64,000 nucleotides of DNA from Azospirillaceae bacterium (GTDB lineage Bacteria; Pseudomonadota; Alphaproteobacteria; Azospirillales; Azospirillaceae): the NCBI GenBank assembly GCA_028283825.1, contig JAPWJW010000002.1:372001-436000 (forward strand). The letters are read 5' to 3'. Made by a program: the position numbers and the translations under genes. Of the stretch, positions 15,867 through 33,463 are shown one piece after another. The notes beneath the pieces were generated by a model. That model was not told the origin of the DNA. It saw only the letters and a list, made by a program, of their open reading frames with translations, and did not search any database. Within the stretch, counting starts at the first letter, position 1; each line of letters opens with the position of its first letter.

Positions 15867-16013
15867 ATGGCGCATCGTGAAGAGACTTATCGCGGTTATG
15901 TGATCAGTTGGGTCGAGCCTCGACCAATGACCGGCAATTACCAGGTCTCAGTCGCTTCAAATGACCTTAGGTTGCTTGGCCGCCTCAGAGTCCGTTTTGG
16001 AAATCAGGGATGA
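15867..16013 (+). pseudogene. Truncated hypothetical gene cut by IS insertions
   Basis: ATG at 15867 opens a frame MAHREETYRGYVISWVEPRP onward, with a plausible start context (AAGGGTG). Host codons run to about 15987; the rest is inside the IS5 end. The IS701-like element inserted first, then IS5. The sequence past the IS701 element does not restore this frame, so flanking DNA was lost. Function unknown. Confidence 0.5.
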
Positions 16014-17268: not shown

Positions 17269-17332
17269 TGTAAATGGCGAAGTGATTTTCCCCAGAAGTG
17301 GCGACTTAAAAATCCCCAAATGGTTTGGTTGG

Positions 17333-17851
17333 CTAATTGATTGGGTGGGTGTCGTCGGGCCTCACTTCCGGCGGTCTTCCGCGTTTCCGAATGGCTTGGA
17401 GCGGCGCGGTATCGGGTCTTCGCCGGACGTTTTCGGGGATGAGGTCGGCGTGCTGGCGTAGCCTGTAGCTGGCGCCCTCGATCTGCACGACGATGGCGTG
17501 GTGGAGAAGGCGATCGAGGAGAGCCGTGGCGACGACGGTGTCGCCGAAGACGTCGCCCCATTCGGCGAAGCCGCGGTTCGAGGTGAGGACCATGGCGCCC
17601 TTTTCGTATCGGGCGTTGACGAGCTGGAAGAAGAGGTTGCCGCCGCCGGGGACGACGGGGAGGTAGCCGATCTCATCGACGATGAGGAGTTGGGGGCGGC
17701 AGAGGAAGCGCAGGCGTTCGCGCAAGGTGCCCTCGCGTTCGGCCTTGGCCAGGGAAGCGATGAGGTCGGCCAGGGTGGTGAAGTAGACGGAGCGTCCCGC
17801 CTTGACGGCCTCCGCCCAGGGCCGTGGCGAGGTGGCTCTTGCCGGTGCCGG
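17333..17851 (-). pseudogene. istB: istB (IS21 A), C-terminal part
   Basis: Continues the IstB ATPase after the Walker A loop: [12 protein letters not shown], then after a frameshift EAVKAGRSVYFTTLADLIAS, LLIVDEIGYLPVVPGGGN (Walker B), and VLTSNRGFAEWGDVFGD, ending RPDDTHPIN. The two istB parts total 847 nt, one more than a multiple of 3, so there is a frameshift (near 17822) besides the insertion. IstB loads the IS21 transposase on target DNA. Confidence 0.88.
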
Positions 17852-17971
17852 TCGAGGCAGCGGCATACTGCCCGATATCAGGGGCAGGACGCGACGATCC
17901 ATTATCCGTTTCATCCGCGATGCGGTGAACGCGTAGGCATCATCCGGCGCCATTGCCTTGGCGGTAGCGTC

Positions 17972-18316
17972 ATGCTGGTGGTCGAGCAACCGGACGGCAC
18001 GCTGACCCATGTGCCGGAATGGATGACCGCCCCTGCAGCCCGTGACGCCGCCATCCGTGACGCTCCCCGCTTTCCCATGGAGGTATTGCAGGCTCTGCGT
18101 CTGACCGCTGACGCGGCCCTATCGTTGCTGTGTGAACGACGCAACGGAGGGCGGCATGAGGCATCGCGGAATGATGGTGCAGACGGATCTGTTCACGGCG
18201 ACCCGGCCACTGGCAGCTCTTCCGCAGGAGGTTGCGCGCCGAGTCTTGCCGCTTCTGGAACAACTTTTGCTGGAAGTCCTGGCGAGCGAGGCCGTGACGC
18301 TGGAGGGGAACGATGA
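17972..18316 (+). CDS. DUF5372-like accessory ORF of the recombinase element, copy A
   Basis: The 114-residue ORF starts MLVVEQPDGTLTHVPEWMTA. The frame is open before this ATG and encodes [20 protein letters not shown], like the start of DUF5372 proteins that often sit next to such recombinases. No usual start codon lies there, so the true start is unclear. The last ~50 codons overlap the next ORF and are probably not essential. The same ORF is present in copy B at 31540-31884. Function unknown. Confidence 0.5.
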   Translation: MLVVEQPDGTLTHVPEWMTAPAARDAAIRDAPRFPMEVLQALRLTADAALSLLCERRNGGRHEASRNDGADGSVHGDPATGSSSAGGCAPSLAASGTTFAGSPGERGRDAGGER

Positions 18317-18332
18317 ACAAGATCACCCCTGA
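18156..18332 (+). CDS. Short accessory ORF of the recombinase element, copy A
   Basis: 58 residues, MRHRGMMVQTDLFTATRPLA and a helical stretch PQEVARRVLPLLEQLLLEVL. GGAGGG lies 6-9 bases before the ATG. Its end overlaps the recombinase start by 20 bases, so the two are likely co-translated. It matches the layout of small ORFs before large recombinases of this type. Function unknown. Confidence 0.6.
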   Translation: MRHRGMMVQTDLFTATRPLAALPQEVARRVLPLLEQLLLEVLASEAVTLEGNDEQDHP

Positions 18333-20361
18333 CCACCTGGCCCGTCGCGCCTACATCTACGTCCGTCAATCCAGTGCCGACCAGCTCCTGCACAACCATG
18401 AGAGCCGACGGCGCCAATACGGACTGGCGGATCGTGCCCGCCAACTCGGTTGGACGGATGTGGTGGTGATTGACGATGACCTCGGGCGATCAGGTGGTGG
18501 CATCGCGCGTCCCGGGTTCGAGCGGCTGCTGGGGGCGATCTGCGAAGGGCGGGTCGGCATTGTCCTGGCGATCGAAGCGTCGCGGCTCGCCCGCAACGGC
18601 CGGGACTGGCACACGCTGTTGGAGTTCTGCGGCCTCGTTGACTGCCTGCTGGCGGACGAGGACGGGGTCTACGACGCGCGGCTTCCGAACGACCGTCTCG
18701 TCTTGGGCATGAAGGGCACCATGAGCGAGATGGAGCTTTCCATCCTGCGCCAGCGATCGCTGGAAGCTCTGCGGCAGAAGGCCCGCCGGGGCGAGCTGTT
18801 TTTGACCGTGGCGGTCGGCTACGTCAAAACCCGCCATGACCGGATCGCCCTGAATCCGGACCAACGGGTGCGCGAGGCGCTCGCCTTGGTGTTTCGCAAG
18901 TTCGCCGAGTTCCAGAGTATCCGGCAGGTCCACCTCTGGCTTCGTCAGGAGCAGATCAGGCTACCGGCTGTCGAACAGACCGCCGACGGCCCCCGCATCG
19001 CGTGGAAGCTGCCTGTCTACAACACCATCCACCATCTGCTGACCAATCCCGTCTATGGCGGCGCCTACGTGTTTGGTCGGACCGGCAGCCGGGTCAGCGT
19101 GCGGGATGGGCGCAAACATGTCGTGCGCGGCTTCCGTCGCGCCCAGTCGGAATGGGAGGTGTTGATCCCCGAGCATCACGAGGGCTACATCTCGTGGGCG
19201 GAGTTCGGAAGGAACCAGGCACTGATCGCCGATAACGCCAACGGCAAAGGGCTTATGGCCCGCGGTTCGGTGCGCCGCGGTGACGCGCTGTTGGCTGGGC
19301 TGCTGCGCTGCGGGCACTGTGGTCGACGACTGCACGTCTCCTACAGCGGCACGGGCGGCTATTGTGTGCGTTACAACTGCCGTGGCGCACACATCAATCA
19401 TGGAAGCGAACGCTGCATCTCGTTTGGCGGCTTGCGGGTCGATGGTGCCGTTGCGACAGAGGTCCTCAGGTTTCTGGCCCCATTGGGCATCGAGGCGGCC
19501 TTGCAGGCGATCGAAGCCCGCGAGGCCGAGGGGTCCGAGGCGCGCCGACAGACGGAACTCGCTTTGACCCAGGCCCGCTATGAGGCCGAGTTGGCACGCC
19601 GCCAGTATGATGCGGTTGATCCCGGCAACCGTCTCGTGGCGGCCGAGCTTGAGCGTCGGTGGAATGACCGGCTGGTAGAGGTCCACCGGCTGGAGGAACG
19701 CATAGGGGCGTTTGACGCCAACCCACGGGCCAGTTTCAAGGCCCAGGACCGTGCCCGCCTGATGGCGCTGGGCGCCGACATCCATACGCTCTGGCATCAT
19801 GCTGGCGCGACGGCGGAGACGCGCAAGCGTATCCTGCGCACGGTCATCATCGAGATTGTCGCGAGGGTCGCCGCCGACACGATCCACCTCACCATTCACT
19901 GGCAGGGAGGCGATCACACCAGTCTGACCGTGCCGAAGAACCAAACCGGCAAACACCGTTGGCGAACCGACGCCGACACCGGTGACCTCATTCGGACCCT
20001 GGCACGGCAGCAGCCGGACGGGGGTATCGCCGCGATCCTGAACCGGGCCGGTAAACGTACCGGCAAGGGTAATAGTTGGACCGAAGCGCGGGTGCGCAGC
20101 TTCCGCAGCGCCCATGGCATAGCCGTCTACAGGGAGGGCGAGATCGCTGAACGAGGGGAACTGACCTTGGAGGAAGCGGCCACACGCCTACAGGTCAGCA
20201 AGATGACGGTGTTGCGTCTGATCGCCGGTGGTGCCATCCAGGCAAACCAGGCGTGTAAGGGAGCGCCTTGGGCGATTCCTGAAGCCCAGCTATCCGGGCT
20301 CAATCCGGCTTACCGTCCGGTAACAAAAAATCCGGATCAGAAGACCTTTGATTTCCAATAA
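18313..20361 (+). CDS. Large serine recombinase, copy A
   Basis: 682 residues. The resolvase catalytic domain covers residues 1-150: RAYIYVRQSSADQ with the nucleophile Ser20, VVVIDDDLGRSGGG, AIEASRLARNGRDW. The Recombinase domain spans about 160-290. A zinc ribbon lies at about 333-370 (LRCGHCGRR, YCVRYNC). A coiled coil rich in Glu, Arg and Ala runs from about 400 to 480. At 617-660 a helix-turn-helix of the excisionase/MerR type (LTLEEAATRLQVSKMTVLRL IAGGAIQANQ) is fused at the end. It cuts and rejoins DNA at attachment sites by a serine linkage. The translation printed for copy B is identical. Confidence 0.95.
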   Translation: MNKITPDHLARRAYIYVRQSSADQLLHNHESRRRQYGLADRARQLGWTDVVVIDDDLGRSGGGIARPGFERLLGAICEGRVGIVLAIEASRLARNGRDWHTLLEFCGLVDCLLADEDGVYDARLPNDRLVLGMKGTMSEMELSILRQRSLEALRQKARRGELFLTVAVGYVKTRHDRIALNPDQRVREALALVFRKFAEFQSIRQVHLWLRQEQIRLPAVEQTADGPRIAWKLPVYNTIHHLLTNPVYGGAYVFGRTGSRVSVRDGRKHVVRGFRRAQSEWEVLIPEHHEGYISWAEFGRNQALIADNANGKGLMARGSVRRGDALLAGLLRCGHCGRRLHVSYSGTGGYCVRYNCRGAHINHGSERCISFGGLRVDGAVATEVLRFLAPLGIEAALQAIEAREAEGSEARRQTELALTQARYEAELARRQYDAVDPGNRLVAAELERRWNDRLVEVHRLEERIGAFDANPRASFKAQDRARLMALGADIHTLWHHAGATAETRKRILRTVIIEIVARVAADTIHLTIHWQGGDHTSLTVPKNQTGKHRWRTDADTGDLIRTLARQQPDGGIAAILNRAGKRTGKGNSWTEARVRSFRSAHGIAVYREGEIAERGELTLEEAATRLQVSKMTVLRLIAGGAIQANQACKGAPWAIPEAQLSGLNPAYRPVTKNPDQKTFDFQ

Positions 20362-20394
20362 CGTAGCGAGGTGGGCATCATGACGCGAGAGCGG

Positions 20395-20722
20395 GCTGGC
20401 CCAAGAGGTGGAGGACTTCGTGCCGGTCGATGAAGTCCAGTTGGGCCAGGGCCAGGATACGGTCCCTGTCGAGGGAAGGCTGGAAGGCGAAGTCGAAGCC
20501 CGCCAGCGTCTTGACGGTGAGGAGGCGGCCCATCTGGAGGGCTGCCTTGACACGGCGTGCTTCCCGGAGCGCCAGTTCCTCGCCGAGCAGGGCGTCGATG
20601 GCCTCCAGGGTGGAGAGGGTGCCGCGCTCAGCCTGGCGCAGGACGTGGTCCAGCGTTTCCAGGGCGCGCGGCATCTTCAGGCCCACCAGGTGGCGCCGGA
20701 TGCTGTCGAGGGTGGCGGTCAT
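20395..20722 (-). pseudogene. istB: istB (IS21 A), N-terminal part
   Basis: MTATLDSIRRHLVGLKMPRA at the start, then GRLLTVKTLAGFDFAFQPSL and RHEVLHLLGQP, where the recombinase element enters just before the GTGK codons. Reading on into the element adds ALAS and a stop at 20378. The ATG at 20722 overlaps the istA stop by 4 bases. Confidence 0.9.
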
Positions 20723-22017
20723 GGCGCGACCTCGCGCTGGATGTCGCCTTGGGCGAGCTGGCGGCCAACGGCGTCGTAGATGGCCAGGTCGCGCGGCGTA
20801 ACGATCTCGCCGGGCCGCCGTGGCGGCGGCGCCTGGGGGGCGCATTGCCGGGGTGTCGTGCTGTTGACAGGCGGCGGCAGGACACGATGCCCGGCGATCA
20901 GGTGCCGGTGTCCACGTCCCTCCAGCACAGGATGGACGGCGATCCGGCGGCCATCCTCCAGGATGTGTACCTGGTCGGCGGTGAGTTGCACTTCGACGGC
21001 GCGGCGCCGGGTGCTATCGGGCACGGAATAGAGGTTGCCGCCAACGGATACCATACCGTCCTTGGTGATGCGGCGTTCCAGGGACAGGACGGTGGCATAG
21101 GGCATCGGGGGGATGGGCTTGAGGTGGGGCCGCTCCTCGGCGAAGTGCTCGATGACGATGCGCTGGGTGGTGGCGTGGCGGCGGATGTTGGCGACCTGGT
21201 CCAGCCATTGGCGCAGTTGGCCGTTCAGGTCGTCGAGGTTGCGGAAGGTGCGACCCAGGAAGAAGTCCTGGCGGATGTAGCGGAAGGGCCGCTCGACCTT
21301 GCCCTTGGTTTTGGGGCGGTAAGGTTTACAGGCCTTGGGCAGGAAGCCGTAATGGGCAGCCAGCTCCAGCAGGCGGGCGTTGTAGGCGATGCCGCCATCG
21401 GCGCCGTCATCGCCCGCCGCCTCGCCCAGCACGGCGGTCTTCATGCGGTCGTAGAGGATGCGGGCGGGCACGCCGCCCAGGGCCTGGAAGACGGCGATAT
21501 GGCACCTCAGCACGGTGGCCAGGTCCTGGCGCGCGACGAAGCGTGCCCACAGCATGCGGCTGTGGCCCAGCACCAGGGAGAACAGCCACACCACCCGTTC
21601 CACGCCGGGCTCATCGGTGAAGCTGGCCTTGAAGTGGGCGAAGTCCACCTGGGCCTGATGCCCCGGCGGCGTCTCGAACCGCTGCTCATAGCCCTTGGCC
21701 GCCGCCGGTCGCACGGTGCGCAGGAAGTCCTTCACTGCCGTGTAGCCGCCGGAATAGCCCAGGGCCTGGATCTCCCGCAGCAGACGGCGGGCGCTCAGCC
21801 CGGGCACCGCGATCACCCGCTGGCGCAGGTAGGCCTCATAGGGCCCGACCACCGTGGGCTTGGACGGCCGGGGCGTATAGCGGGGCGGCTCCAGCCCCTG
21901 GGCGATGTAGCGACGGACAGTCTTGCGGTCCAGGCCGGTCTGCCGGGCAATGGCGGAGACGGTCAGCCCTTCACGGGCAAGTTCCAGGATCATGACGAGT
22001 TCCCCAAGTGTGACCAC
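20719..22017 (-). CDS. istA: IS21-family transposase IstA, element A
   Basis: 432 residues, apparently intact. An N-terminal helix-turn-helix (REGLTVSAIARQTGLDRKTVRRYI) precedes the DDE core: GHQAQVDFAHFKASF (first D), ARILYDRMKTAVLG (second D) and PYRPKTKGKVERPFRYIRQD (E). A C-terminal beta domain ends in ...REVAP. With istB broken, the element should be unable to move on its own. Confidence 0.94.
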   Translation of the reverse strand: MVTLGELVMILELAREGLTVSAIARQTGLDRKTVRRYIAQGLEPPRYTPRPSKPTVVGPYEAYLRQRVIAVPGLSARRLLREIQALGYSGGYTAVKDFLRTVRPAAAKGYEQRFETPPGHQAQVDFAHFKASFTDEPGVERVVWLFSLVLGHSRMLWARFVARQDLATVLRCHIAVFQALGGVPARILYDRMKTAVLGEAAGDDGADGGIAYNARLLELAAHYGFLPKACKPYRPKTKGKVERPFRYIRQDFFLGRTFRNLDDLNGQLRQWLDQVANIRRHATTQRIVIEHFAEERPHLKPIPPMPYATVLSLERRITKDGMVSVGGNLYSVPDSTRRRAVEVQLTADQVHILEDGRRIAVHPVLEGRGHRHLIAGHRVLPPPVNSTTPRQCAPQAPPPRRPGEIVTPRDLAIYDAVGRQLAQGDIQREVAP

Positions 22018-22169
22018 CAGTCCCCTCCCTCGCTCCTGCGAGGACAGTCTGGGTGACCAGCGGCCGCGAGGTCCCGGGGGGCATGCCCCCCGGGACCTCG
22101 CCGGTCAACGAAACTGGGGAAAATTCAGGCGCCACTTCTGGGGAGTATTCATTCGCCACTGACACATGG

Positions 22170-23188
22170 ACCGATCCGGGCCTGGATCATCGACGACACC
22201 GGCATGCCCAAGAAGGGCCGCCATTCCGTTGGCGTGGCCCGGCAATATTGCGGCCAACTGGGCAAGCAGGACAATTGCCAGGTCGCCGTCTCGCTGTCGC
22301 TGGCCTCCGACCACGCCAGCCTTCCCCTCGCCTTCCAACTCTATCTGCCCGACCCCTGGGCCAACGACCCAGCGCTACGGACCAAGGCCGGCGTCCCCGA
22401 AACGGTCGCCTTTCAGACCAAGCCGGCCATCGCCCTGGACCAGGTGCGTGCCGCTGTAGCGGCGGGTCTGCCCGCCGGCGTGGTGCTCATGGATGCTGGC
22501 TACGGCAACGACACCGCTCTGCGGGACGGGATCAGCGCGTTGGGCCTCGCCTATGTCGCTGGCGTCCACTCCAACATCACCGTCTGGCCGCCCGGTGTGG
22601 CGCCCTTGCCACCCAAGCCCTGGAGCGGCAAGGGGCGGCCGCCCTCACGCCTGCGTCGAAGCCCCGGACATGAACCGGTATCGGCGAAGGCACTGGCCAC
22701 TGGCCACTGGCCTGGCATCGGAAGCGTGGCAGACCGTCACCTGGCGTGAAGGCACCAACGCCCCGCTGACATCCCGCTTCGCCGCCGTTCGTGTCCATCC
22801 CGCCCATCGCGACAATGAGCGCGCCGAATTACGCCCGGCGGAATGGCTGCTCATCGAATGGCCGGAGGGAGAAGAAGAACCCACCAAGTATTGGCTATCG
22901 ACCTTGCCGGAGGCCACGGCACTGCCGTACTTGATCGACACCGCCAAGCTGCGCTGGCGCATTGAGCGCGACTACCTTGAACTCAAGCAGGAACTCGGCC
23001 TCGGCCACTATGAGGGCCGGGGATGGCGCGGATTCCACCACCACGCCACCCTTTGCATCGCCGCCTACGGATTCCTGCTCCGCGAACGGGCCGCGATTCC
23101 CCCCTCAGCTTCTGCTCAAACCAGGGGCATCAAGGCGCCTGACATTCCCGAAGGCTACAGACCAAGGGGCGCCGCCCCCACGGCCTGA
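22170..23188 (+). pseudogene. IS701-like transposase, C-terminal part with 7-bp duplication
   Basis: Encodes AWIIDDTGMPKKGRHSVGVA, GVVLMDAGYGNDTALRDGIS, and after a frame change AWQTVTWREGTNAPLTSRFA, LRWRIERDYLELKQELGLG and HYEGRGWRGFHHHATLCIAA. The frame change comes from a tandem CCACTGG-CCACTGG (22697-22710); taking out one 7-bp copy restores ALATGLASEAWQ. So the gene is broken both by the IS21-like element and by this slip. Confidence 0.88.
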
Positions 23189-23304
23189 GCGTCACGTCCC
23201 AACATCCATCGCCACAATGCGCATTACCATTGCAAGGGCTCTCGCCAGGACACTCCCGCGATGTCCTTGCTGTCAGCAATTGCGCATCTTGTGACACAGT
23301 AGAA

Positions 23305-24174
23305 CTAGTTGCAATTTACCTGCAAACTTAATTTATGGCCGTAGATCATTTCCAATAAATCGACAACCCTTTTTTCATCTCCCAAATCATTATCAATTTT
23401 CCTTATAAAGGGCTTATCTCTATTGCGCGCCATCTCAGAAAGCTGATCAAAATCTAAAATAGATGGACTTGAAGCGCCAGAAACCCATTTAAATTGAGTA
23501 ATATTTCCCTGAATGCAAAATTTAGAATAGTCGGAATTTAAAAGAATTGTTTGAAAATAAGATTCATCTGGAATGTTTGTTATCCGCAATCTTCTTTCTA
23601 TTTCGGACCCCGCAGATCCTACAACAAAATTTACATGCTCTTTTGCCAAAATAGACCACTGAGATCCCTTAAAATATGGAAAATTAGGCCGCTGTACAGC
23701 ATTGGTTTTAACCATGCCGCGCCCCAAATGCTCTACATATTCCCATTCCACACGCTCAGCCAGCCCTTCTAGCCATCTTGGGCACTCACCATCGGGTAAT
23801 TGATGCCAGGACATAATGCTCTGACCATCTTGCACCCAGTCCCGGATTTTGTTCGGCGACCATAGAGGAAGATGAGTCCCAGATAAGATAATCCCATGTG
23901 ACCAGGAGGTTTTCCCTTGAAGCGCCAACGACATCATATCAAGCGTAGCGTCAACTAAGCTCAACCCTCCCCATGAACATAGTCTAGTAGAAATAAGAGA
24001 AAAATTCTCTAATCCTTTGGTTGCTTCCCTCAAATCATCAAGCACTTTAGGGCAAGATCGCTTGTCGACATGCAATACAAATTGATCTTTAGGATTATAT
24101 AAGGCCTTCAGTAGCCGTATTGTTTGCCGAACGCAGGAATGTGCTAGTATAAAATATGCGATCGATGTGGACAT
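23305..24174 (-). CDS. Core-2/I-branching type glycosyltransferase (GT14-like)
   Basis: 289 residues. MSTSIAYFILAHSCVRQTIR at the start, FVLHVDKRSCPKVL, ISTRLCSWGGLSLVDATLDM, then HGIILSGTHLPLWS, GSQWSILAKEHVNFVV, and PDESYFQTILLNS. This is the pattern of bacterial relatives of beta-1,6-N-acetylglucosaminyltransferases, which add branch sugars in capsule or exopolysaccharide. The DNA is AT-rich compared with the chromosome. The TAG stop lies at the end of the IS701-like element, so a few C-terminal residues may be lost. It is 19 bases downstream of the pyruvyltransferase gene. Confidence 0.82.
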   Translation of the reverse strand: MSTSIAYFILAHSCVRQTIRLLKALYNPKDQFVLHVDKRSCPKVLDDLREATKGLENFSLISTRLCSWGGLSLVDATLDMMSLALQGKTSWSHGIILSGTHLPLWSPNKIRDWVQDGQSIMSWHQLPDGECPRWLEGLAERVEWEYVEHLGRGMVKTNAVQRPNFPYFKGSQWSILAKEHVNFVVGSAGSEIERRLRITNIPDESYFQTILLNSDYSKFCIQGNITQFKWVSGASSPSILDFDQLSEMARNRDKPFIRKIDNDLGDEKRVVDLLEMIYGHKLSLQVNCN

Positions 24175-24193
24175 TTATTCTTTATCCCTTATT

Positions 24194-25210
24194 TTATTTG
24201 AATTCAGTATCAATGAATTTTAGAGAATGCGTCCATGCCTCATAAAATGATCTATTCTTCCCATAAATATTGTCGCGAAAAACATGTTCCTTCATCAACA
24301 AACATGAAAGGATGTGCGCATGCAGCCGGTCAGTTTTCAAATTCTTTCCCAATCCTACGATATGCATACCTAAGATCAGACGCCTCATCGATATGAGGTC
24401 AAAATAGGATGGGGCGCCAAATATCCTGGAAATATCAGATTGCTTTAGATCGAATTCATCTAGAAGATTTCTTGATATATATCCATAATAATAATTTTCT
24501 TCATTGCACCAATCAATTACCATATCCGGTTTATCAGATGCCCCGCCATCATCTATTCTCTCTTGGTCATCTCTAACAATATACAACATCTCAAAATGAG
24601 GATCGAGCAGCGGGACGCGCTGGCAAATATAAGTAATTAATGGCATTAAGAAAAATGCGCAATCAGGGGCAAGAAAAACCCGATCATCACTTGCAAAGTT
24701 GTGTGCGAGACTTCTGCTTCTTTTATCTCTTGTAAATATAAAGCAATTCTTGTGCGCCAAGAACTTTTGAGATGACAAATTCATCTTTTCAGGAGATGAG
24801 AAATGTATCGTTTGCGGCAATACAATTACTCTGTTATTTGGGTATTTTTCTAGTAGAATTTCCCTTGATACTTGAAAGTTCTGGTATATATCGCCAAAAT
24901 TCCCCCCGCCCGACGTAACAATAGTCACATCCTGATTTAGGTTAGGCAGGCGACGAGATCGTACATCCCATGCTGTAAGTTCTGCAAGGCAGTGTTTCCC
25001 TAAGCTATTCATAGCCGCCTTTGCGCCTAACCAAATTAGATGATCTCCAGTATTTGTGTAATCGGGCCAGTCCACGAATATGTATTCTGGTCCCGAAATC
25101 AATTCAGCTAATTTCTCTCTGAATTGCGCGACATGATCAAATATCTCAAGCACGGCCATCACCCAGGTTAGAAGTCCATACCCTATCACAGCCGCTTGCG
25201 ACATCGTCAA
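24194..25210 (-). CDS. Polysaccharide pyruvyl transferase family protein
   Basis: 338 residues. Motifs are FVDWPDYTNTGDHLIWLGA near residue 45, VTIVTSGGGNFGDIYQNF, VIVLPQTIHFSSPEKMN, a central Asp-rich part, and SMRRLILGMHIVGLG near 275. This fits PssM/EpsO-like enzymes that put pyruvate ketals on exopolysaccharide sugars. The region is AT-rich and adjoins an IS5 element. The first ~17 residues (to LLTWV) may not belong to the protein; ATG at 25159 (MAVLEIFDHVAQF) is another start. It looks like a fragment of a larger polysaccharide locus. Confidence 0.85.
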   Translation of the reverse strand: MTMSQAAVIGYGLLTWVMAVLEIFDHVAQFREKLAELISGPEYIFVDWPDYTNTGDHLIWLGAKAAMNSLGKHCLAELTAWDVRSRRLPNLNQDVTIVTSGGGNFGDIYQNFQVSREILLEKYPNNRVIVLPQTIHFSSPEKMNLSSQKFLAHKNCFIFTRDKRSRSLAHNFASDDRVFLAPDCAFFLMPLITYICQRVPLLDPHFEMLYIVRDDQERIDDGGASDKPDMVIDWCNEENYYYGYISRNLLDEFDLKQSDISRIFGAPSYFDLISMRRLILGMHIVGLGKNLKTDRLHAHILSCLLMKEHVFRDNIYGKNRSFYEAWTHSLKFIDTEFK

Positions 25211-25257
25211 GCCCCACCCTAGCAGAGTGTCGGTGACAGATAATCTGACCGATCTCA

Positions 25258-26161
25258 GAGTCCGTTTTGGAAATCAGGGATGAGCGTTTCATGGTAGCAG
25301 ATTGCCGCCCATGGCGACGTAGATCATGGCCTGTGAGACATCGGTTCGCCGTTCATAATCACGAACGAGACGTCGCCAACGGATCATCCAGCCGAAGATG
25401 CGCTCGACAACCCAGCGGCGGGGCAGCACCCGGAATCCTTTCTGATCATCGCACCGGCGTATGACCTCGACGACGAAATCCAGGTAAGCGGCTTTGTTCA
25501 TCAGCTTCATGCGATCATAGGCGCCATCGGCGAACAGGTGTTTCACCCAAGGCCAGCGTTTGCGGATCGCCTCCAGGATCGCCTGTGCGCCGGCGCTGTC
25601 GGAGATATCGGCTGGTGTCAGCTTGACCATCAGCAGGCGCCCATCGGTATCGACGGCGATGTGCCGCTTGCGACCAACGACTGTCTTGCCCGCGTCGTAA
25701 CCCCTTGTTTCCGCATGCGGTGCTTTGACTGATTGGCTGTCAATCACCCCGGCCGTGGGGCTCGCTTCCCGACCCGCCCGCTCCCGATCAACCATCAGCG
25801 CGACATCGTGAATGGTCTGGAACAGAAACCGGCGCGCCATTTCGCGGAACCAACCGTAGACCGTCTGCCAGGGGCCGAAATTGGTCGGCAACATCCGCCA
25901 CCCGCAACCCGACCGGACAAGATAGCGAACCGCGTTGATCACTTCCCGAAAGTCAACCTCGCGCGGCCGGCCGCGGCGGCCTGGCTTCGGCATCAGTGAC
26001 GCGATCCGCTCCCACTCCTCGTCCGTCAGGTCAGACGGATAGCGCTTCGTCTTCTTGGCGATTTCGGTCATCCGACCACGGCTCTGCTTCGTCCACATCA
26101 ACAGCTTGAATCATGACATCGCCGACACCGCAAGGGCCTATGCTATTTTCCAAACAGCCTC
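25258..26161 (-). mobile_element. IS5-family element, copy 2
   Basis: 904 bp with the same ends and orientation as copy 1. The flanking triplets differ (TCA at 25255-25257, TTA at 26162-26164), so unlike copy 1 it lacks a matching target duplication. Its right end directly abuts the remnant of another IS5-type element. Confidence 0.92.
25289..26101 (-). CDS. IS5-family transposase, copy 2
   Basis: 270 residues, nearly identical to copy 1 (for example S versus P in ERIASLM, L versus V in RYLVRSG, F versus S in PTNFGPW). The DDE motifs IDSQSVKAP, FADGAYD and VVERIFGWM are kept, and it ends GGNLLP at a TGA. Probably active. Confidence 0.95.
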   Translation of the reverse strand: MMWTKQSRGRMTEIAKKTKRYPSDLTDEEWERIASLMPKPGRRGRPREVDFREVINAVRYLVRSGCGWRMLPTNFGPWQTVYGWFREMARRFLFQTIHDVALMVDRERAGREASPTAGVIDSQSVKAPHAETRGYDAGKTVVGRKRHIAVDTDGRLLMVKLTPADISDSAGAQAILEAIRKRWPWVKHLFADGAYDRMKLMNKAAYLDFVVEVIRRCDDQKGFRVLPRRWVVERIFGWMIRWRRLVRDYERRTDVSQAMIYVAMGGNLLP

Positions 26162-26165
26162 TTAA

Positions 26166-26620
26166 TGCCTATTTTCGCTCCCACCTTCGAGTTTCAGGAG
26201 GCGCCAATCGTCTCAGCAACACGCGGATGAACGCCAAACGGATCATAGTGACGCTGTTGCGGACATGTCGTTCCACGTCTTCGGTCAGCCGGCGGTAGTC
26301 GCGTATCCACGCAAAGGTGCGCTCGACCACCCACCGCTTGGCATCAGGGACAAAGCGCTTCACTGCCGCCGTCAGATTTTGGCCGATCACCATAGCGGCG
26401 CCCACGGTCTTTTCGACCCAGGTGGCCAGTGGTTTTCCGGCATAGCCTTTGTCGGCAAAGATGGCCTTCACCTTGCCCTTGATATCGCCCCCAGGCCATT
26501 TGGCCACCAAGCGCTTCAGCACCATCTTGGCGCCGCGTGTGTCATGAAAATTTGGCGGGTGTCACCGCCACATCCAATAGCAGACCGGTCGTGTCGGTTC
26601 GCGCCCATCCTGCGCTGCCA
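26166..26620 (-). pseudogene. Remnant of another IS5-type transposase
   Basis: The C-terminal half of a second IS5 subgroup transposase: ...AKMVLKRLVAKWPGGDIKGK, AIFADKGYAGKPLATWVEK, and AKRWVVERTFAWIRDYRRLT. Upstream, DTTGLLLDVAVTPA lies in another frame; one base must change in GCCAAATTTTCATGA to join them. The N-terminal half is missing. It lies between IS5 copy 2 and the split host gene. Confidence 0.8.
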
Positions 26621-26781
26621 GCGATTTTACAGGGCACAGGCTAAGAGAGTCGATTGATGCGCGCGCTAACATACCTTCGACAGAGCACGGAAGGCTATGT
26701 TGCCACGGGAAACACAACCCATATTTGGTTGCTTGTCCGATGGGCCGCTGGGCCCGACATTGGCGGTTCGGGGGATGCGAG

Positions 26782-26996
26782 ATGGCTGATACCGTCACCG
26801 TAGATCATCGTTGGCTCAGGGACGATGCGATGGCCTCGCTGCTGAGCGAGGCCATGTGCGACTTCGCGTTGTTGGACCAAACACCCGATCCACAGAAAGC
26901 ACGGGCTTTGGTGGCCGGACTCTGTCTCGTCCGGATGAGTGACACTTTTCGGTTCGCGTTCGAGAAGAGTTTGGACGCCCTTCGGCATCAGTCCAG
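26782..26996 (+). pseudogene. Split host gene, N-terminal part
   Basis: MADTVTVDHRWLRDDAMASL, LLDQTPDPQKARALVAGLCL and DTFRFAFEKSLDALRHQS, cut by IS256 copy 1 at the 9-bp target TCAGTCCAG (26988-26996). Joining it to 36871-37300 gives 645 nt, an unbroken 214-residue frame (...LRHQS-SCGPFYSW...). GGGATGCGAG precedes the ATG; no strong ribosome site. No family recognised. Confidence 0.6.
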
Positions 26997-27150
26997 GGTC
27001 ACGTCCCACCGCGTGGTGTAGGAGCGCCTCCGCCGTGTCAGGCGTGGAGGCCGGCGTAGCCGGCTGGAAGGCCTGACACGGCGGGCGGTCATCGCGGTTC
27101 TTCGGTAAAGTTTGGTCACCACAACAAAACCCCAACCGAGGGTGACCACG

Positions 27151-27529
27151 ATGACCGACCCGATGATGGCGCTGCGCGTGATGCTTGAAAAGGGCGCAGA
27201 CGCCGATGTGCTGAGACAGATGATCGGCTTTGCCGCCGAACGGCTGATGGAACTGGAGGTTCAGGAGTTGACCGGTGCCGGCCACGGCGAACGGTCGGCC
27301 GACCGCCTGGTTCAGCGCAATGGCTACCGTGACCGCGACTGGCATACCCGCGCCGGCACGGTGGAGCTACACATTCCCAAACTGCGCAAGGGCAGCTACT
27401 TCCCAGGATTTCTGGAGCCCCGTCGCATGGCGGAGAAGGCGCTGACCGCCGTGATCCAGGAAGCCTATATCCAGGGCGTCTCCACCCGCGCCGTGGACGA
27501 CCTGGTTCAGGCCATGGGCATGACCGGCA
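27151..27529 (+). pseudogene. IS256 transposase copy 1, N-terminal part
   Basis: [60 protein letters not shown], ending [11 protein letters not shown] at the insertion of IS21-like element B. With 32643-33463 it makes 1200 nt and 399 residues, matching copy 2. Confidence 0.93.
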
Positions 27530-27643
27530 TGTGAATCGGCGTGGAATAAGGACCCCGTATGAGGGGTGATCGGCGTCCAATCGGGACCCCTTTTGCGCGG
27601 GTCCATACTGGCTCCCATGGCAATGGCGGGAGCCTTGATTGGG

Positions 27644-29143
27644 ATGCTGATAGTGGAGACGATCGCGAAGATCCGGCGCGCCTACTTTGTTCAGCAGAAG
27701 CCGATCAAGGCGATCTGCCGTGAACTGGGTTTGTCGCGGAAGGTAGTCCGCAAGGTGCTTCGTTCGGAGGCGACGGAGTTCCGGTACGAGCGAACGGCGC
27801 AGCCCCAGCCGAAGATCGGCCCGTGGCGGGAGCGGCTGGACGCGCTGCTGTTGGCCAACGAGACCAAGGCGGCGCGTGAGCGGCTGACGCTGGTGCGGAT
27901 TTACGAGGAACTGCGGGGTGCCGGGTACGACGGCAGCTATGACGCCGTGCGGCGCTACGCCCGTTCCTGGCAGAAGGCGCGGGGGGCGTCGCAGGCGGCG
28001 GCCTACGTGCCGTTGAGCTTCGCGCCGGGGGAGGCCTACCAGTTCGACTGGAGCCACGAGGTGGTGCTGATCGGCGGGGTGACGGTCACGGTGAAGGTGG
28101 CGCATGTCCGGCTGTGCCACAGCCGGATGCTGTTCGCGCGCGCATATCCGCGCGAGACGCAGGAGATGGTGTTCGACGCCCACGACCGGGCGTTCGCCTT
28201 CTTCAAGGGCACGTGCACGCGCGGGATCTACGACAACATGAAGACGGCGGTGGAGACGATCTTCGTGGGCAAGGAGCGAGCCTACAACCGGCGCTTCCAG
28301 CAGATGTGCAGCCATTACCTGGTGGAGCCGGTGGCCTGCACCCCGGCGGCGGGATGGGAGAAGGGCCAGGTTGAGAACCAGGTGGGCCTGGTGCGGGAAC
28401 GGTTCTTCACGCCGCGCCTGCGGGTGGCGAGCTACGAGGAACTGAACGGCTGGCTGCTGGACCAGTGCGTCGCCTACGCCAGGGCGCACCGGCATCCCGA
28501 GCAGCGGGACCGCACCGTCTGGGAGATGTTCGAGGCGGAGCGACCCAGCCTGGTGGGCTACGTGGGGCGGTTCGATGGCTTCCACGCCACCCCGGCGTCG
28601 GTGTCCAAGACCTGCCTGGTGCGGTTCGACCACAACAAGTACTCGGTGGCGGCCAAGGCGGTGGGGCGCCCGGTGGAGGTGCGGGCCTATGCCGACCGGA
28701 TCGAACTGCGCCAGGACGGCCAGGTGGTGGGGACGCACGCGCGTTGCTTCGGCCGCGACCGCACCGTCTACGATCCCTGGCACTATGTGCCGGTGCTGGC
28801 GCGCAAGCCGGGGGCCCTGCGCAACGGCGCGCCCTTCAAGGATTGGGTGCTGCCCACGGCGCTGGACCGGGTGCGGCGCAAGCTGGCGGGCAGCGACGAT
28901 GGCGACCGGCAGATGGTCGACATCCTGACGGCGGTGCTGAGCGACGGCCTCCCGGCGGTGGAGGCGGCCTGTGCCGAGGCGCTGCGCGAGAACGTCCATT
29001 CCGCCGCCGTCATCCTCAACATCTTGGCCCGGCGGCGGGAAGCGGCGGCGCCGGCGCCCATTCAAACGCCCGAGACGCTGCGGTTGCACCAAGCCCCCAT
29101 GGCCGATTGCGCCCGGTACGACACCTTGGGGAGGGTACAGTGA
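27644..29143 (+). CDS. istA: IS21-family transposase IstA, element B
   Basis: 499 residues from ATG at 27644 (MLIVETIAKIRRAYFVQQKP). A helix-turn-helix at the start (KAICRELGLSRKVVRKVLRS), the DDE core with AYQFDWSHEVVLIGG, TRGIYDNMKTAVETI and AAGWEKGQVENQVGLVRERF, and a C-terminal domain ending YDTLGRVQ. The stop TGA overlaps the istB start (TGATG). It appears intact. Confidence 0.94.
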   Translation: MLIVETIAKIRRAYFVQQKPIKAICRELGLSRKVVRKVLRSEATEFRYERTAQPQPKIGPWRERLDALLLANETKAARERLTLVRIYEELRGAGYDGSYDAVRRYARSWQKARGASQAAAYVPLSFAPGEAYQFDWSHEVVLIGGVTVTVKVAHVRLCHSRMLFARAYPRETQEMVFDAHDRAFAFFKGTCTRGIYDNMKTAVETIFVGKERAYNRRFQQMCSHYLVEPVACTPAAGWEKGQVENQVGLVRERFFTPRLRVASYEELNGWLLDQCVAYARAHRHPEQRDRTVWEMFEAERPSLVGYVGRFDGFHATPASVSKTCLVRFDHNKYSVAAKAVGRPVEVRAYADRIELRQDGQVVGTHARCFGRDRTVYDPWHYVPVLARKPGALRNGAPFKDWVLPTALDRVRRKLAGSDDGDRQMVDILTAVLSDGLPAVEAACAEALRENVHSAAVILNILARRREAAAPAPIQTPETLRLHQAPMADCARYDTLGRVQ

Positions 29144-29461
29144 TGGAGCGCCCGGAAATCCTGGCCGCCATGGCCGAGCTGAAGCTCTACGGCATGAAGG
29201 CGGCGTATGACGAGATCATCACCACGGCCGTCAAGCGCCAGCACGAACCCCAGCGCATCGTCGGCGACCTGCTGGGTGCAGAGATCAGCGAGAAGCAGGC
29301 TCGTTCCATCCGCTACCAGATCACCCTGGCCAAGCTGCCCCTGGCCAAGGACGTCGATGACTTCGCGTTCGAGGGCACACCCATCAACCAGACCCTGGTC
29401 CGTGACCTGGCGGGCGGCGACTTCCTGGCCCATCAGCGTAACGTCGTCCTGGTCGGCGGAA
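29143..29461 (+). pseudogene. istB: istB (IS21 B), N-terminal part
   Basis: MERPEILAAMAELKLYGMKA, ISEKQARSIRYQITLAKLPL and HQRNVVLVGGT, then cut at the P-loop by the recombinase element; reading on gives ALAS and a stop at 29478. With 32005-32414 it makes 729 nt, an in-frame 242-residue IstB. Confidence 0.93.
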
Positions 29462-29494
29462 CCGCTCTCGCGTCATGATGCCCACCTCGCTACG

Positions 29495-31543
29495 TTATTG
29501 GAAATCAAAGGTCTTCTGATCCGGATTTTTTGTTACCGGACGGTAAGCCGGATTGAGCCCGGATAGCTGGGCTTCAGGAATCGCCCAAGGCGCTCCCTTA
29601 CACGCCTGGTTTGCCTGGATGGCACCACCGGCGATCAGACGCAACACCGTCATCTTGCTGACCTGTAGGCGTGTGGCCGCTTCCTCCAAGGTCAGTTCCC
29701 CTCGTTCAGCGATCTCGCCCTCCCTGTAGACGGCTATGCCATGGGCGCTGCGGAAGCTGCGCACCCGCGCTTCGGTCCAACTATTACCCTTGCCGGTACG
29801 TTTACCGGCCCGGTTCAGGATCGCGGCGATACCCCCGTCCGGCTGCTGCCGTGCCAGGGTCCGAATGAGGTCACCGGTGTCGGCGTCGGTTCGCCAACGG
29901 TGTTTGCCGGTTTGGTTCTTCGGCACGGTCAGACTGGTGTGATCGCCTCCCTGCCAGTGAATGGTGAGGTGGATCGTGTCGGCGGCGACCCTCGCGACAA
30001 TCTCGATGATGACCGTGCGCAGGATACGCTTGCGCGTCTCCGCCGTCGCGCCAGCATGATGCCAGAGCGTATGGATGTCGGCGCCCAGCGCCATCAGGCG
30101 GGCACGGTCCTGGGCCTTGAAACTGGCCCGTGGGTTGGCGTCAAACGCCCCTATGCGTTCCTCCAGCCGGTGGACCTCTACCAGCCGGTCATTCCACCGA
30201 CGCTCAAGCTCGGCCGCCACGAGACGGTTGCCGGGATCAACCGCATCATACTGGCGGCGTGCCAACTCGGCCTCATAGCGGGCCTGGGTCAAAGCGAGTT
30301 CCGTCTGTCGGCGCGCCTCGGACCCCTCGGCCTCGCGGGCTTCGATCGCCTGCAAGGCCGCCTCGATGCCCAATGGGGCCAGAAACCTGAGGACCTCTGT
30401 CGCAACGGCACCATCGACCCGCAAGCCGCCAAACGAGATGCAGCGTTCGCTTCCATGATTGATGTGTGCGCCACGGCAGTTGTAACGCACACAATAGCCG
30501 CCCGTGCCGCTGTAGGAGACGTGCAGTCGTCGACCACAGTGCCCGCAGCGCAGCAGCCCAGCCAACAGCGCGTCACCGCGGCGCACCGAACCGCGGGCCA
30601 TAAGCCCTTTGCCGTTGGCGTTATCGGCGATCAGTGCCTGGTTCCTTCCGAACTCCGCCCACGAGATGTAGCCCTCGTGATGCTCGGGGATCAACACCTC
30701 CCATTCCGACTGGGCGCGACGGAAGCCGCGCACGACATGTTTGCGCCCATCCCGCACGCTGACCCGGCTGCCGGTCCGACCAAACACGTAGGCGCCGCCA
30801 TAGACGGGATTGGTCAGCAGATGGTGGATGGTGTTGTAGACAGGCAGCTTCCACGCGATGCGGGGGCCGTCGGCGGTCTGTTCGACAGCCGGTAGCCTGA
30901 TCTGCTCCTGACGAAGCCAGAGGTGGACCTGCCGGATACTCTGGAACTCGGCGAACTTGCGAAACACCAAGGCGAGCGCCTCGCGCACCCGTTGGTCCGG
31001 ATTCAGGGCGATCCGGTCATGGCGGGTTTTGACGTAGCCGACCGCCACGGTCAAAAACAGCTCGCCCCGGCGGGCCTTCTGCCGCAGAGCTTCCAGCGAT
31101 CGCTGGCGCAGGATGGAAAGCTCCATCTCGCTCATGGTGCCCTTCATGCCCAAGACGAGACGGTCGTTCGGAAGCCGCGCGTCGTAGACCCCGTCCTCGT
31201 CCGCCAGCAGGCAGTCAACGAGGCCGCAGAACTCCAACAGCGTGTGCCAGTCCCGGCCGTTGCGGGCGAGCCGCGACGCTTCGATCGCCAGGACAATGCC
31301 GACCCGCCCTTCGCAGATCGCCCCCAGCAGCCGCTCGAACCCGGGACGCGCGATGCCACCACCTGATCGCCCGAGGTCATCGTCAATCACCACCACATCC
31401 GTCCAACCGAGTTGGCGGGCACGATCCGCCAGTCCGTATTGGCGCCGTCGGCTCTCATGGTTGTGCAGGAGCTGGTCGGCACTGGATTGACGGACGTAGA
31501 TGTAGGCGCGACGGGCCAGGTGGTCAGGGGTGATCTTGTTCAT
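29495..31543 (-). CDS. Large serine recombinase, copy B
   Basis: 682 residues, with the same translation as copy A throughout: catalytic Ser in YVRQSSADQ, Recombinase domain, zinc ribbon RCGHCGRR...YNC, coiled coil, and C-terminal helix-turn-helix ending ...NPDQKTFDFQ. The identity of two copies 11 kb apart points to a recent second integration, or gene conversion. Confidence 0.95.
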   Translation of the reverse strand: MNKITPDHLARRAYIYVRQSSADQLLHNHESRRRQYGLADRARQLGWTDVVVIDDDLGRSGGGIARPGFERLLGAICEGRVGIVLAIEASRLARNGRDWHTLLEFCGLVDCLLADEDGVYDARLPNDRLVLGMKGTMSEMELSILRQRSLEALRQKARRGELFLTVAVGYVKTRHDRIALNPDQRVREALALVFRKFAEFQSIRQVHLWLRQEQIRLPAVEQTADGPRIAWKLPVYNTIHHLLTNPVYGGAYVFGRTGSRVSVRDGRKHVVRGFRRAQSEWEVLIPEHHEGYISWAEFGRNQALIADNANGKGLMARGSVRRGDALLAGLLRCGHCGRRLHVSYSGTGGYCVRYNCRGAHINHGSERCISFGGLRVDGAVATEVLRFLAPLGIEAALQAIEAREAEGSEARRQTELALTQARYEAELARRQYDAVDPGNRLVAAELERRWNDRLVEVHRLEERIGAFDANPRASFKAQDRARLMALGADIHTLWHHAGATAETRKRILRTVIIEIVARVAADTIHLTIHWQGGDHTSLTVPKNQTGKHRWRTDADTGDLIRTLARQQPDGGIAAILNRAGKRTGKGNSWTEARVRSFRSAHGIAVYREGEIAERGELTLEEAATRLQVSKMTVLRLIAGGAIQANQACKGAPWAIPEAQLSGLNPAYRPVTKNPDQKTFDFQ

Positions 31544-31700
31544 CGTTCCCCTCCAGCGTCACGGCCTCGCTCGCCAGGACTTCCAGCAAAAGTTGTTCCA
31601 GAAGCGGCAAGACTCGGCGCGCAACCTCCTGCGGAAGAGCTGCCAGTGGCCGGGTCGCCGTGAACAGATCCGTCTGCACCATCATTCCGCGATGCCTCAT
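31524..31700 (-). CDS. Short accessory ORF of the recombinase element, copy B
   Basis: 58 residues, same as the ORF at 18156-18332 (MRHRGMMVQTDLFTATRPLA). It overlaps the recombinase start by 20 bases. Confidence 0.6.
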   Translation of the reverse strand: MRHRGMMVQTDLFTATRPLAALPQEVARRVLPLLEQLLLEVLASEAVTLEGNDEQDHP

Positions 31701-31884
31701 GCCGCCCTCCGTTGCGTCGTTCACACAGCAACGATAGGGCCGCGTCAGCGGTCAGACGCAGAGCCTGCAATACCTCCATGGGAAAGCGGGGAGCGTCACG
31801 GATGGCGGCGTCACGGGCTGCAGGGGCGGTCATCCATTCCGGCACATGGGTCAGCGTGCCGTCCGGTTGCTCGACCACCAGCAT
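31540..31884 (-). CDS. DUF5372-like accessory ORF of the recombinase element, copy B
   Basis: 114 residues, same as 17972-18316 (MLVVEQPDGTLTHVPEWMTA). As in copy A, the frame upstream of the ATG encodes the DUF5372-like [13 protein letters not shown] stretch without a usual start codon. Confidence 0.5.
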   Translation of the reverse strand: MLVVEQPDGTLTHVPEWMTAPAARDAAIRDAPRFPMEVLQALRLTADAALSLLCERRNGGRHEASRNDGADGSVHGDPATGSSSAGGCAPSLAASGTTFAGSPGERGRDAGGER

Positions 31885-32004
31885 GACGCTACCGCCAAGG
31901 CAATGGCGCCGGATGATGCCTACGCGTTCACCGCATCGCGGATGAAACGGATAATGGATCGTCGCGTCCTGCCCCTGATATCGGGCAGTATGCCGCTGCC
32001 TCGA

Positions 32005-32414
32005 CCGGCACCGGCAAGAGCCACCTCGCCATCGCCATCGCGCGTGCCTGCATCCGGGGCGGCAGGCGCGGCCGCTTCTTCAACGTCGTCGACCTGGTCA
32101 ACAAGCTGGAGGCCGAGAGCCGCCTGGGGCGCCAGGGGCGGCTGGCCGACCACCTCAGTCGCCTGGACTTCATCATCCTGGACGAACTGGGCTACTTGCC
32201 GTTCCCCCAGGCGGGCGGCCAACTCCTGTTCCACCTCATCAGCCGCCTCTATGAACAGACCTCGGTCATCGTCACCACCAACCTCGCCTTCGGCGAATGG
32301 CCGTCCGTCTTCGGCGACGCCAAGATGACCACCGCCCTGCTCGACCGCCTGACCCATCACTGCGAGATCGTCGAGACCGGCAACGAGAGCTGGCGCTTCA
32401 AAAACCGCGCCTGA
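32005..32414 (+). pseudogene. istB: istB (IS21 B), C-terminal part
   Basis: Resumes at the P-loop: [40 protein letters not shown] (Walker B), [19 protein letters not shown] and ESWRFKNRA at the end. No frameshift, so excision of the recombinase element would restore a working gene. Confidence 0.93.
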
Positions 32415-32642
32415 CAGCCCTCCCATCACCACCCCCGCCCCGGACCCCACCCCCGCGGGTTACCCCGGTGGGCACACAGGCACCTCCCGTCCCCTCCGCT
32501 CCGCGCATCGCCGGAGGCGCTGCGCTCCGGGGACAGGGCCCTCCTATGCGCTACCGGGACAACCCGATTGCCAGCACATCACTGGGGTCCCTATTGGGCG
32601 CCGATACGGGGTCCCGTTACGCTGCCGATTGACAGACCGGCA

Positions 32643-33463
32643 TCTCAAAGAGCCAGGTCAGCCGCCTGTGCGAGGAGATCGACGGCCGGGTGAAGACTTT
32701 CCTGGAACGGCCGCTGGAAGGCGACTGGCCCTACCTCTGGATCGACGCCACCTACGTGAAGGTTCGCCAGAACGGCCGGATCGTCTCGGTGGCCGTCACT
32801 ATCGCAGTGGCGGTCAACACCAATGGCCGCCGGGAGATCCTGGGTATGGACATCGGCACCTCGGAGGCCGAAACCTTCTGGGTGGAGTTCCTGCGCAAGC
32901 TCAAGCGCCGTGGCCTGGGCGGCGTCAAGCTGGTCGTCTCCGACGCCCACGAGGGCATCAAGGCCGCTGTGGCCAGGGTGTTCCGCGCCACCTGGCAGCG
33001 TTGTCGAGTGCACTTTATGCGCAACGCCCTGGCCCATGCCGGCAAGCAGGGCCGGCGTGTCGTGGCCGCCTTTATCGGCACCGCCTTCGCCCAGGAGGAC
33101 GCCACCGCCGCCCGAACCCAGTGGCGTCAGGTCGCCGATCAGCTTCGCCCCAAGGTCGGCAAGCTGGCCGCCCTGATGGACGAGGCCGAGGACGACGTCC
33201 TGGCCTTCATGTCCTTCCCCGCCGCCCACAGGGCCAAGCTGCACAGCACCAACCCCATCGAACGCCTCAACGGCGAGATCAAGCGCCGTACCGAGGTCGT
33301 CGGCATCTTCCCGAACGAGGACGCCATCACCCGCCTGGTGGGTGCCGTCCTCATGGAGATCAACGATGAATGGGCAGTTCAGCGCGGTCGCTACATGACC
33401 CTGGAAACCATCGCCGCCGTCGGCGATGATCCAACCATCATGCTGCCCACTGTCGCCGCATGA
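32643..33463 (+). pseudogene. IS256 transposase copy 1, C-terminal part
   Basis: Starts at [20 protein letters not shown]. The catalytic core has [19 protein letters not shown] (first D), [20 protein letters not shown] (second D) and [20 protein letters not shown] (E), and it ends [11 protein letters not shown]. Near identical to copy 2. Confidence 0.93.

Follow-up and report, generated by a model that had tools for sequence, protein, structure and literature searches.

The window analysed here, a 64,000-nucleotide stretch of an Azospirillaceae genome assembly, contains two copies of a small element, A and B, each lying within the istB gene of an IS21 transposon (Table 1). An earlier note on this DNA, made from the sequence alone, had described two 2543-bp elements with the same ends and the same predicted proteins, inserted in opposite chromosome directions but in the same direction relative to istB. 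Both observations were confirmed. The copies are identical, with 0 mismatches over 2570 bp (17825-20394 versus 29462-32031), a length made up of the 2543-bp element and 27 bp of istB on the GTGK side, and they are mutually inverted on the replicon yet oriented alike with respect to istB, to which the recombinase gene is antisense in each. The ends that the note had given (17849-20391 and 29462-32004) locate the element correctly but shift slightly, as a short repeat makes them ambiguous by 3 bp; centring them on the symmetry of the attachment site attP gives 17852-20394 and 29459-32001.

Table 1. Features of the two elements and their host transposons, in positions of the window.
Feature	Coordinates	Strand	Remarks
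IS21-A, host of copy A	17269..22164	-	5-bp target duplication CCATG at both sides; istA 20719-22017
istB C-half, IS21-A	17333..17851	-	Frameshifted, 2 bp missing relative to the contig-4 copy
Element copy A, 2543 bp	17852..20394	+	Identity to B and three further genome copies; ends from attP symmetry and junctions
Left attP arm, copy A	17852..17873	+	12 bp, then CATACTGCCC, in the ORF1 frame
ORF1, copy A, DUF5372-like	17852..18316	+	Frame and start analysis; stop overlaps the recombinase ATG (ATGA)
ORF2, 58 aa	18156..18332	+	Overlaps the 3' part of ORF1 in a different frame
Large serine recombinase, copy A, 682 aa	18313..20361	+	Resolvase, Recombinase and zinc-ribbon domains
Right attP arm, copy A	20369..20394	+	SD-like AGGTGG, then GCATC-ATG (ATG 20380-20382), 12 bp to the crossover centre
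istB N-half, IS21-A	20395..20722	-	
IS21-B, host of copy B	27530..32634	+	8-bp target duplication GACCGGCA; istA 27566-29143
istB N-half, IS21-B	29143..29458	+	
Element copy B, 2543 bp	29459..32001	-	Identity to the other copies; junctions
Large serine recombinase, copy B, 682 aa, identical to that of A	29495..31543	-	Same domains
ORF1, copy B	31537..32001	-	Mirror of copy A
istB C-half, IS21-B	32002..32414	+	Begins GTGKSHLA

Only ORF1, ORF2 and the recombinase gene were recognised in the element, with no relaxase gene among these three. The recombinase matched PF00239 (13-161), PF07508 (188-307) and PF13408 (326-370), all above cut-off, with a C-terminal HTH_17 just below it; judged by this domain order, the protein is a large serine recombinase (LSR). 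Its top NCBIfam match was XisF (NF041201), but XisF equivalog identity is ruled out by a score of 82.8 bits where 375 are needed. An IS607-type serine transposase was likewise ruled out, as the catalytic domain is N-terminal and the target highly specific, whereas IS607-type enzymes are described as having an inverted domain order and minimal target specificity (PMC4058570). ORF2 showed no Pfam family above cut-off in a Pfam scan, and the ORF at its place is annotated as a hypothetical protein in plasmid records. ORF1 of the window scored 19.4 (E 0.0011) against PF17342 (DUF5372), for which the gathering score is 25; one relative (L032) exceeds the cut-off at 27.3 and another (L102) gave no match. 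Its predicted structure (mean pLDDT 86.6) resembled chains of the 40S ribosome and Tudor domains most closely, with a best PDB match of only E 0.03, and no function was drawn from it.

The insertion point in both istB genes of the window is the first glycine codon of GxGK. In keeping with the earlier claim of two clearly different targets, the C-halves of these genes align at 39%, and removing element B leaves an open frame for the 242-residue IstB that had been predicted. Copy A is unable to restore a working istB because its C-half lacks 2 bp relative to the sister copy on contig 4. The surroundings also contain what we take, from the look of the proteins, to be further mobile elements: the gene enclosing IS21-B (27112-27534 plus 32690-33463) resembles an IS256-type transposase, and two nearly identical transposase ORFs that flank IS21-A (16004-16828 and 25289-26101) are presumably IS5-like. 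A complete copy of the IS256-type gene lies approximately 2 kb beyond IS21-B (35198-36436), and the ORF between the two IS256-type genes (33925-35145) presumably encodes a group II intron reverse transcriptase.

The assembly (five contigs, 7.16 Mb) contains five copies of the element, and in every case the site is the GxGK codon of an istB, a concentration that argues against chance as the reason for their location. Over 2539 bp, the other four differ from copy A by 0, 0, 0 and 1 mismatch. A search with the IstB profile at E 1e-8 returned ten hits: the five N-halves all end at position 101, and the C-halves, also five, start at 100, or at 115 for the frameshifted copy A. Since every istB found in this way is split at GxGK (5 of 5), no intact istB helper was detected in the 7.16-Mb assembly at that threshold. 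The P-loop core CCGGNNNNGGCAAGAS has 44 exact matches in the genome, three of which adjoin an element; the remaining two element junctions read CTGG, outside this pattern.

To learn how general this location is, the earlier note had proposed listing the flanks of related recombinases, and it had named mostly unrelated flanks as an outcome that would speak against a site-specific attachment. Among the best 80 of 178 confirmed relatives, all from other genomes, the istB GxGK junction recurred in 27 (both sides in 22, one side being sufficient for a target assignment), and mostly unrelated flanks did not appear. A larger share of these 80, 42 in total, sits in IS66 tnpC, with 29 at one site (FAGSD-x-GG, hereafter GSD) and 13 at another (behind VERxIRP, hereafter VER). 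Two lie in the P-loops of other ATPases (L064 in an APS kinase and L065 in an AAA ATPase), two in other mobile-element genes (L059 in another LSR and L078 in a DDE_Tnp_1 transposase) and two probably in istB, with Ns or a contig end at the junction (L012 and L054); five have no target call (L052, L056, L063, L067 and L069). At L059 (3336-5597), the relative interrupts the other LSR gene at its GTMSEAELH codons. The tnpC targets were first revealed by Pfam scans of flanks without istB; clustering of flank ORFs, confounded by overlapping frames, served only to choose ORFs for these scans. The initial target search had missed diverged IstB and IS66 proteins, and several of these loci were resolved with more references and by reading the junctions.

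The istB insertions follow one layout, in which the C-half of istB starts at GxGK approximately 460-500 bp upstream of the recombinase and the N-half ends shortly after it. Of 94 loci checked for an istB junction both ways, 41 have one (35 both-sided, copies included), and the reverse orientation was not seen in any. The IstB targets diverge down to 27% identity, and the 36 longer C-halves form 15 clusters at 80% identity and 7 at 60% (copies of one element included). This codon is targeted in several bacterial families and, in one MAG row, in a second phylum. In all six plasmid loci picked from 40 listed rows out of 540 matching records, istA lies downstream of the recombinase, with two Azospirillum plasmid loci among the six representing the same insertion.

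A relative at E 1e-150 was found in 18 of 82 genomes of the window's family (own genome included) and in at least 5 of 385 genomes of a class sample in which three candidates were scored per genome; two of those five repeat the own genome and one from the family sample. Together the two samples contributed 28 new loci, of which 5 are in istB (L111 on one side), 1 at the GSD site and 7 at the VER site of tnpC (L126 with only a distant N-part), and 8 in tnpB (5 of 8 both-sided), leaving 7 with no target call (L116, L119, L123, L124, L129, L134 and L135). Several are likely repeats of loci already counted (L108 of L007, L109 and L110 of L006 and L098, and L133 of L031). The seven new VER insertions occur in both orientations, and the tnpB insertions lie near residue 52. 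It is a more distant clade of these recombinases that splits IS66 tnpB at this place (L113, L118, L125, L130 and L132). Over 108 loci, 12 have no target call and 2 are only probable. The site-specific attachment to istB suggested in the earlier note thus holds, and is wider than suggested, with two sites in tnpC and one in tnpB.

These targets are largely partitioned on the LSR tree (89 rows, quick method, long branches flagged). The 29 GSD rows form one fully supported branch together with L052, with istB rows as nearest neighbours, and the 13 VER rows form a single branch. Four target labels, 'unassigned' included, require 12 changes on the tree compared with a mean of 43 when shuffled; the istB label alone requires 10, because unassigned and distant rows lie between the istB rows.

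Pairs of occupied and empty sites, which are copies at different places and not one place before and after insertion, locate the junctions. In Sinorhizobium, one IS21 occurs with and without the element, with flanks that are 99.7-99.9% (left) and 98.6-98.9% (right) identical. The sites read CCC-AGCG-GCACGG (attB), CCC-AGCG-ATCCC (attL) and GTCCG-AGCG-GCACGG (attR), which leaves AGCG as a short core. In Azospirillum, a similar pair involving ISAzs30 shows 97 and 96% identity, and pairs for IS66 tnpC place the junctions at the GSD (95/92% identical) and VER (88/81%) sites. No same-place pair was found among the few listed records matching the outer flank of two Sinorhizobium plasmid loci. The attP context of the element is CTCGACCGCTCTCG, and its ends would be joined in a predicted circle as GAGAGCGG-TCGAGGCAG. 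Inverted arms of approximately 10 bp, 24 bp apart, are present in the attP of the window (GGGCAGTATG ... CATGATGCCC), and the arms in Sinorhizobium are also 24 bp apart (GGGCATTATG ... CATAATGCCC).

On our own reading of these sequences, the central dinucleotide probably corresponds to bases one and two of the codon that precedes GxGK (p1p2). In an automatic test for which six copies were merged first and seven loci were added to an earlier 22, p1p2 matched between attL and attR at 17 of the 29 non-redundant loci, compared with 7.6 expected (p 0.00005, from shuffling in which even related loci count as independent). The p2p3 frame agreed in 10 of 29 (p 0.32), and the third base gave p 0.90. 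A core at p2p3 had been considered with the first 22 loci (10/22, p 0.045, versus 13/22, p 0.004, for p1p2) and was discarded at 29. In 12 of the 29, including the A-type insertions of this genome, attL and attR carry different dinucleotides; three of the 12 (L009, L022 and L023) seem to have been placed at least one base off. Later arm swapping or a tolerance of mismatches is assumed to account for such differences, and mosaic hosts may be the source of some.

The ends of the element also divide a gene. A DUF5372-like gene lies upstream of the recombinase in 106 of 119 loci, and ORF1 was not found in the other 13. In the window's integrated copy, no ATG within the element precedes the conserved start of ORF1. 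Reading in frame, one first meets an ATG inside the gene (MLVVEQ), which would allow a shorter product. The upstream host strand provides an in-frame ATG in 6 of 69 istB and GSD loci and in 15 of 37 others, mostly VER. When the ends are joined, AGGTGGGCATC-ATG, which comprises SD-like bases and an ATG, comes to lie ahead of ORF1. A frame-blind search found the left arm in 75 of 106 loci (pattern not found in 31), and in all 75 it was in the ORF1 frame, whereas one third would be expected were frames random and independent. Both arms were found in 66 loci (right-arm pattern not found in 9 of 75), and the frame from ATG to ORF1 is open in 63 of these 66, with 42 distinct N-termini. This pattern is present in the istB, GSD, VER and tnpB groups. 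Because one element end carries the SD-like bases and the ATG, and the other end the remainder of the gene, a full ORF1 would exist only in the circle. Translation that depends on the circle could also affect the recombinase, as the ORF1 stop overlaps the recombinase ATG.

Comparison of these sequences thus reveals a precise codon target, a constant orientation throughout the istB group, numerous hosts, sites without the element and a split ORF1. We consider it highly probable that these are small, site-specifically integrating LSR elements, the clades of which use different conserved codons of transposon genes. How broad the attB is bears on one alternative, in which the recombinase recognises P-loop DNA generally and istB is targeted mainly as a multicopy and dispensable gene. 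The relatives in the APS-kinase and AAA ATPase P-loops would fit such breadth, and insertions in essential ATPases would presumably be lost by selection; yet with 44 matches to the core available in the genome, all five copies are in istB, and we regard such general recognition as somewhat unlikely. It is compatible with site-specific integration and concerns only the breadth of attB. Given those two relatives, the recombinase may recognise the DNA of P-loops and strongly prefer that of istB.

A second alternative, that one insertion spread among istB genes by homologous recombination or gene conversion and not by repeated site-specific integration, draws on the mosaic structure of the host transposons. 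The right arm of copy A is mosaic, as the adjoining 27 bp match the B-type istB instead of the sister copy on contig 4, from which the arm also differs by its 2-bp deficit. The window and contig-4 copies (W_A and C4_A) agree throughout on the left, whereas on the right 28 columns in approximately 580 bp differ. We therefore rejected the view that both window copies are clean independent insertions, and took the contig-4 copy (L004) as the cleaner A-type insertion because copy A is both mosaic and frameshifted. Similarly, C3 and C1 have the right half in common, W_B and C3 have nearly the same left half, and three loci of one MAG have the same element and right arm with different left flanks. 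Across such hosts (IS21-A and IS21-B; L095-L097; L024, L027 and L028), the arms switch at the element, which is what either recombinase action on the att sites or homologous exchange in the 2.5 kb of identical sequence would be expected to yield. Clean target duplications (5, 5 and 8 bp) were found in 3 of 5 composites of IS21 and element, and none was found for the IS21-B copies on contigs 3 and 1.

Gene conversion of one insertion, which the earlier note had named as an outcome that would count against its proposal, therefore has a part in this history, in that arms have been swapped at the element. Several findings speak against it as the sole account: the same codon is occupied in 15 IstB clusters, in several families and in the one second-phylum MAG row, by diverged recombinases; IstB types with only 39% identity contain identical elements; empty sites exist; and sister clades use other genes. 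We consider spread from one insertion improbable. That the recombinase genes are old passengers inherited with IS21 or IS66, and not mobile elements of their own, is more improbable still: the clean target duplications suggest that some composites may move as units, as passengers would, but almost identical IS21 copies that lack the element were found, different IS21s harbour one and the same element, related LSRs are in different IS families, and the empty sites and the sharing of one element by several hosts contradict simple inheritance.

Under the favoured reading, site-specific integration into transposon genes, the recombinase would join attP to an attB formed by the Walker A codons of IstB, with crossover at the central dinucleotide and in one orientation, and would thereby cut the IS21 helper ATPase in two. 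The family comprises a DUF5372-like ORF1, a small ORF2 and an LSR, with clades that differ in the conserved codons used (GxGK of istB, FAGSD-x-GG of tnpC, the site behind VERxIRP of tnpC and the site near residue 52 of tnpB). Such sites are abundant, conserved, dispensable to the cell and themselves travelling. From what is generally known of LSRs, we expect a circular intermediate, integration by the element's own recombinase and a directionality factor for excision. As attP overlaps the start of ORF1, the circle would give the full ORF1 and integration would remove its start; ORF1 may therefore act in the circular phase, and the IS21 would probably be inactive until excision or trans complementation. 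More speculatively, IS21 could be silent wherever all istB genes are cut, excision could restore it, and ORF1 could differ between the two states. We propose only tentatively, as a possibility that we do not favour over its opposite, that this is an LSR family specialised on transposition genes, with an attB that changes between codon stretches and an attP that is self-regulating through the ORF1 start. If this were true, excision would switch on both IS21 and ORF1, making one reversible circuit of two mobile elements.

If a family were devoted to conserved codons in genes for transposition, it would parasitise parasites and have a simple means of spreading, through targets that are many, conserved, dispensable and mobile, and it could act as a natural brake on IS21 and IS66; in the present genome, all five istB genes found are cut. 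In these clades, nature offers a series of serine recombinases whose known DNA targets differ, useful for studying how specificity is coded, and through an attP with a ribosome-binding site and a start codon, expression of a gene would come to depend on the state of the DNA. In the titles and abstract openings searched, which covered few subscription papers, we found no description of recombinase elements that target istB or tnpC, nor of an attP that carries the ribosome-binding site and start of a gene.

Conserved host genes are already known as targets of serine integrases. In the XisF/fdxN and SpoIVCA/skin systems, a gene interrupted by an LSR element becomes whole again once the element is excised. 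The element described here is likewise an LSR element within a gene, with XisF as the top NCBIfam match of its recombinase; host gene, size and regulation differ, and gene-restoring excision is here a prediction. Inteins and homing introns are also inserted at catalytic-motif codons, in conserved active sites such as P-loops, but they splice at the protein or RNA level, whereas the present element cuts the product of its host gene. The group II intron RmInt1 works by RNA splicing and retrohoming, in contrast to the DNA site-specific recombination proposed here. It is similar in being a mobile element that lives inside an insertion sequence, ISRm2011-2, the spread of which it limits according to its authors (PMC4238363). 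Integrative mobilizable elements (IMEs) whose insertion point is the nic site within the origin of transfer of an ICE (Guedon et al. 2017, PMC5704250) likewise use a conserved functional site of another mobile element for attachment; they differ in having tyrosine integrases and conjugative mobilisation, whereas none of the three ORFs of the window element is a relaxase gene. A further parallel is offered by the integrating elements with conserved-gene targets in the LSR survey of Durrant et al. 2022 (PMC10083194), the main text of which contains 0 occurrences of istB. As described there, those too are LSR elements at conserved sites in coding sequence; here, the targets are genes of transposable elements, the element is 2.5 kb and its attP carries the start of a gene.
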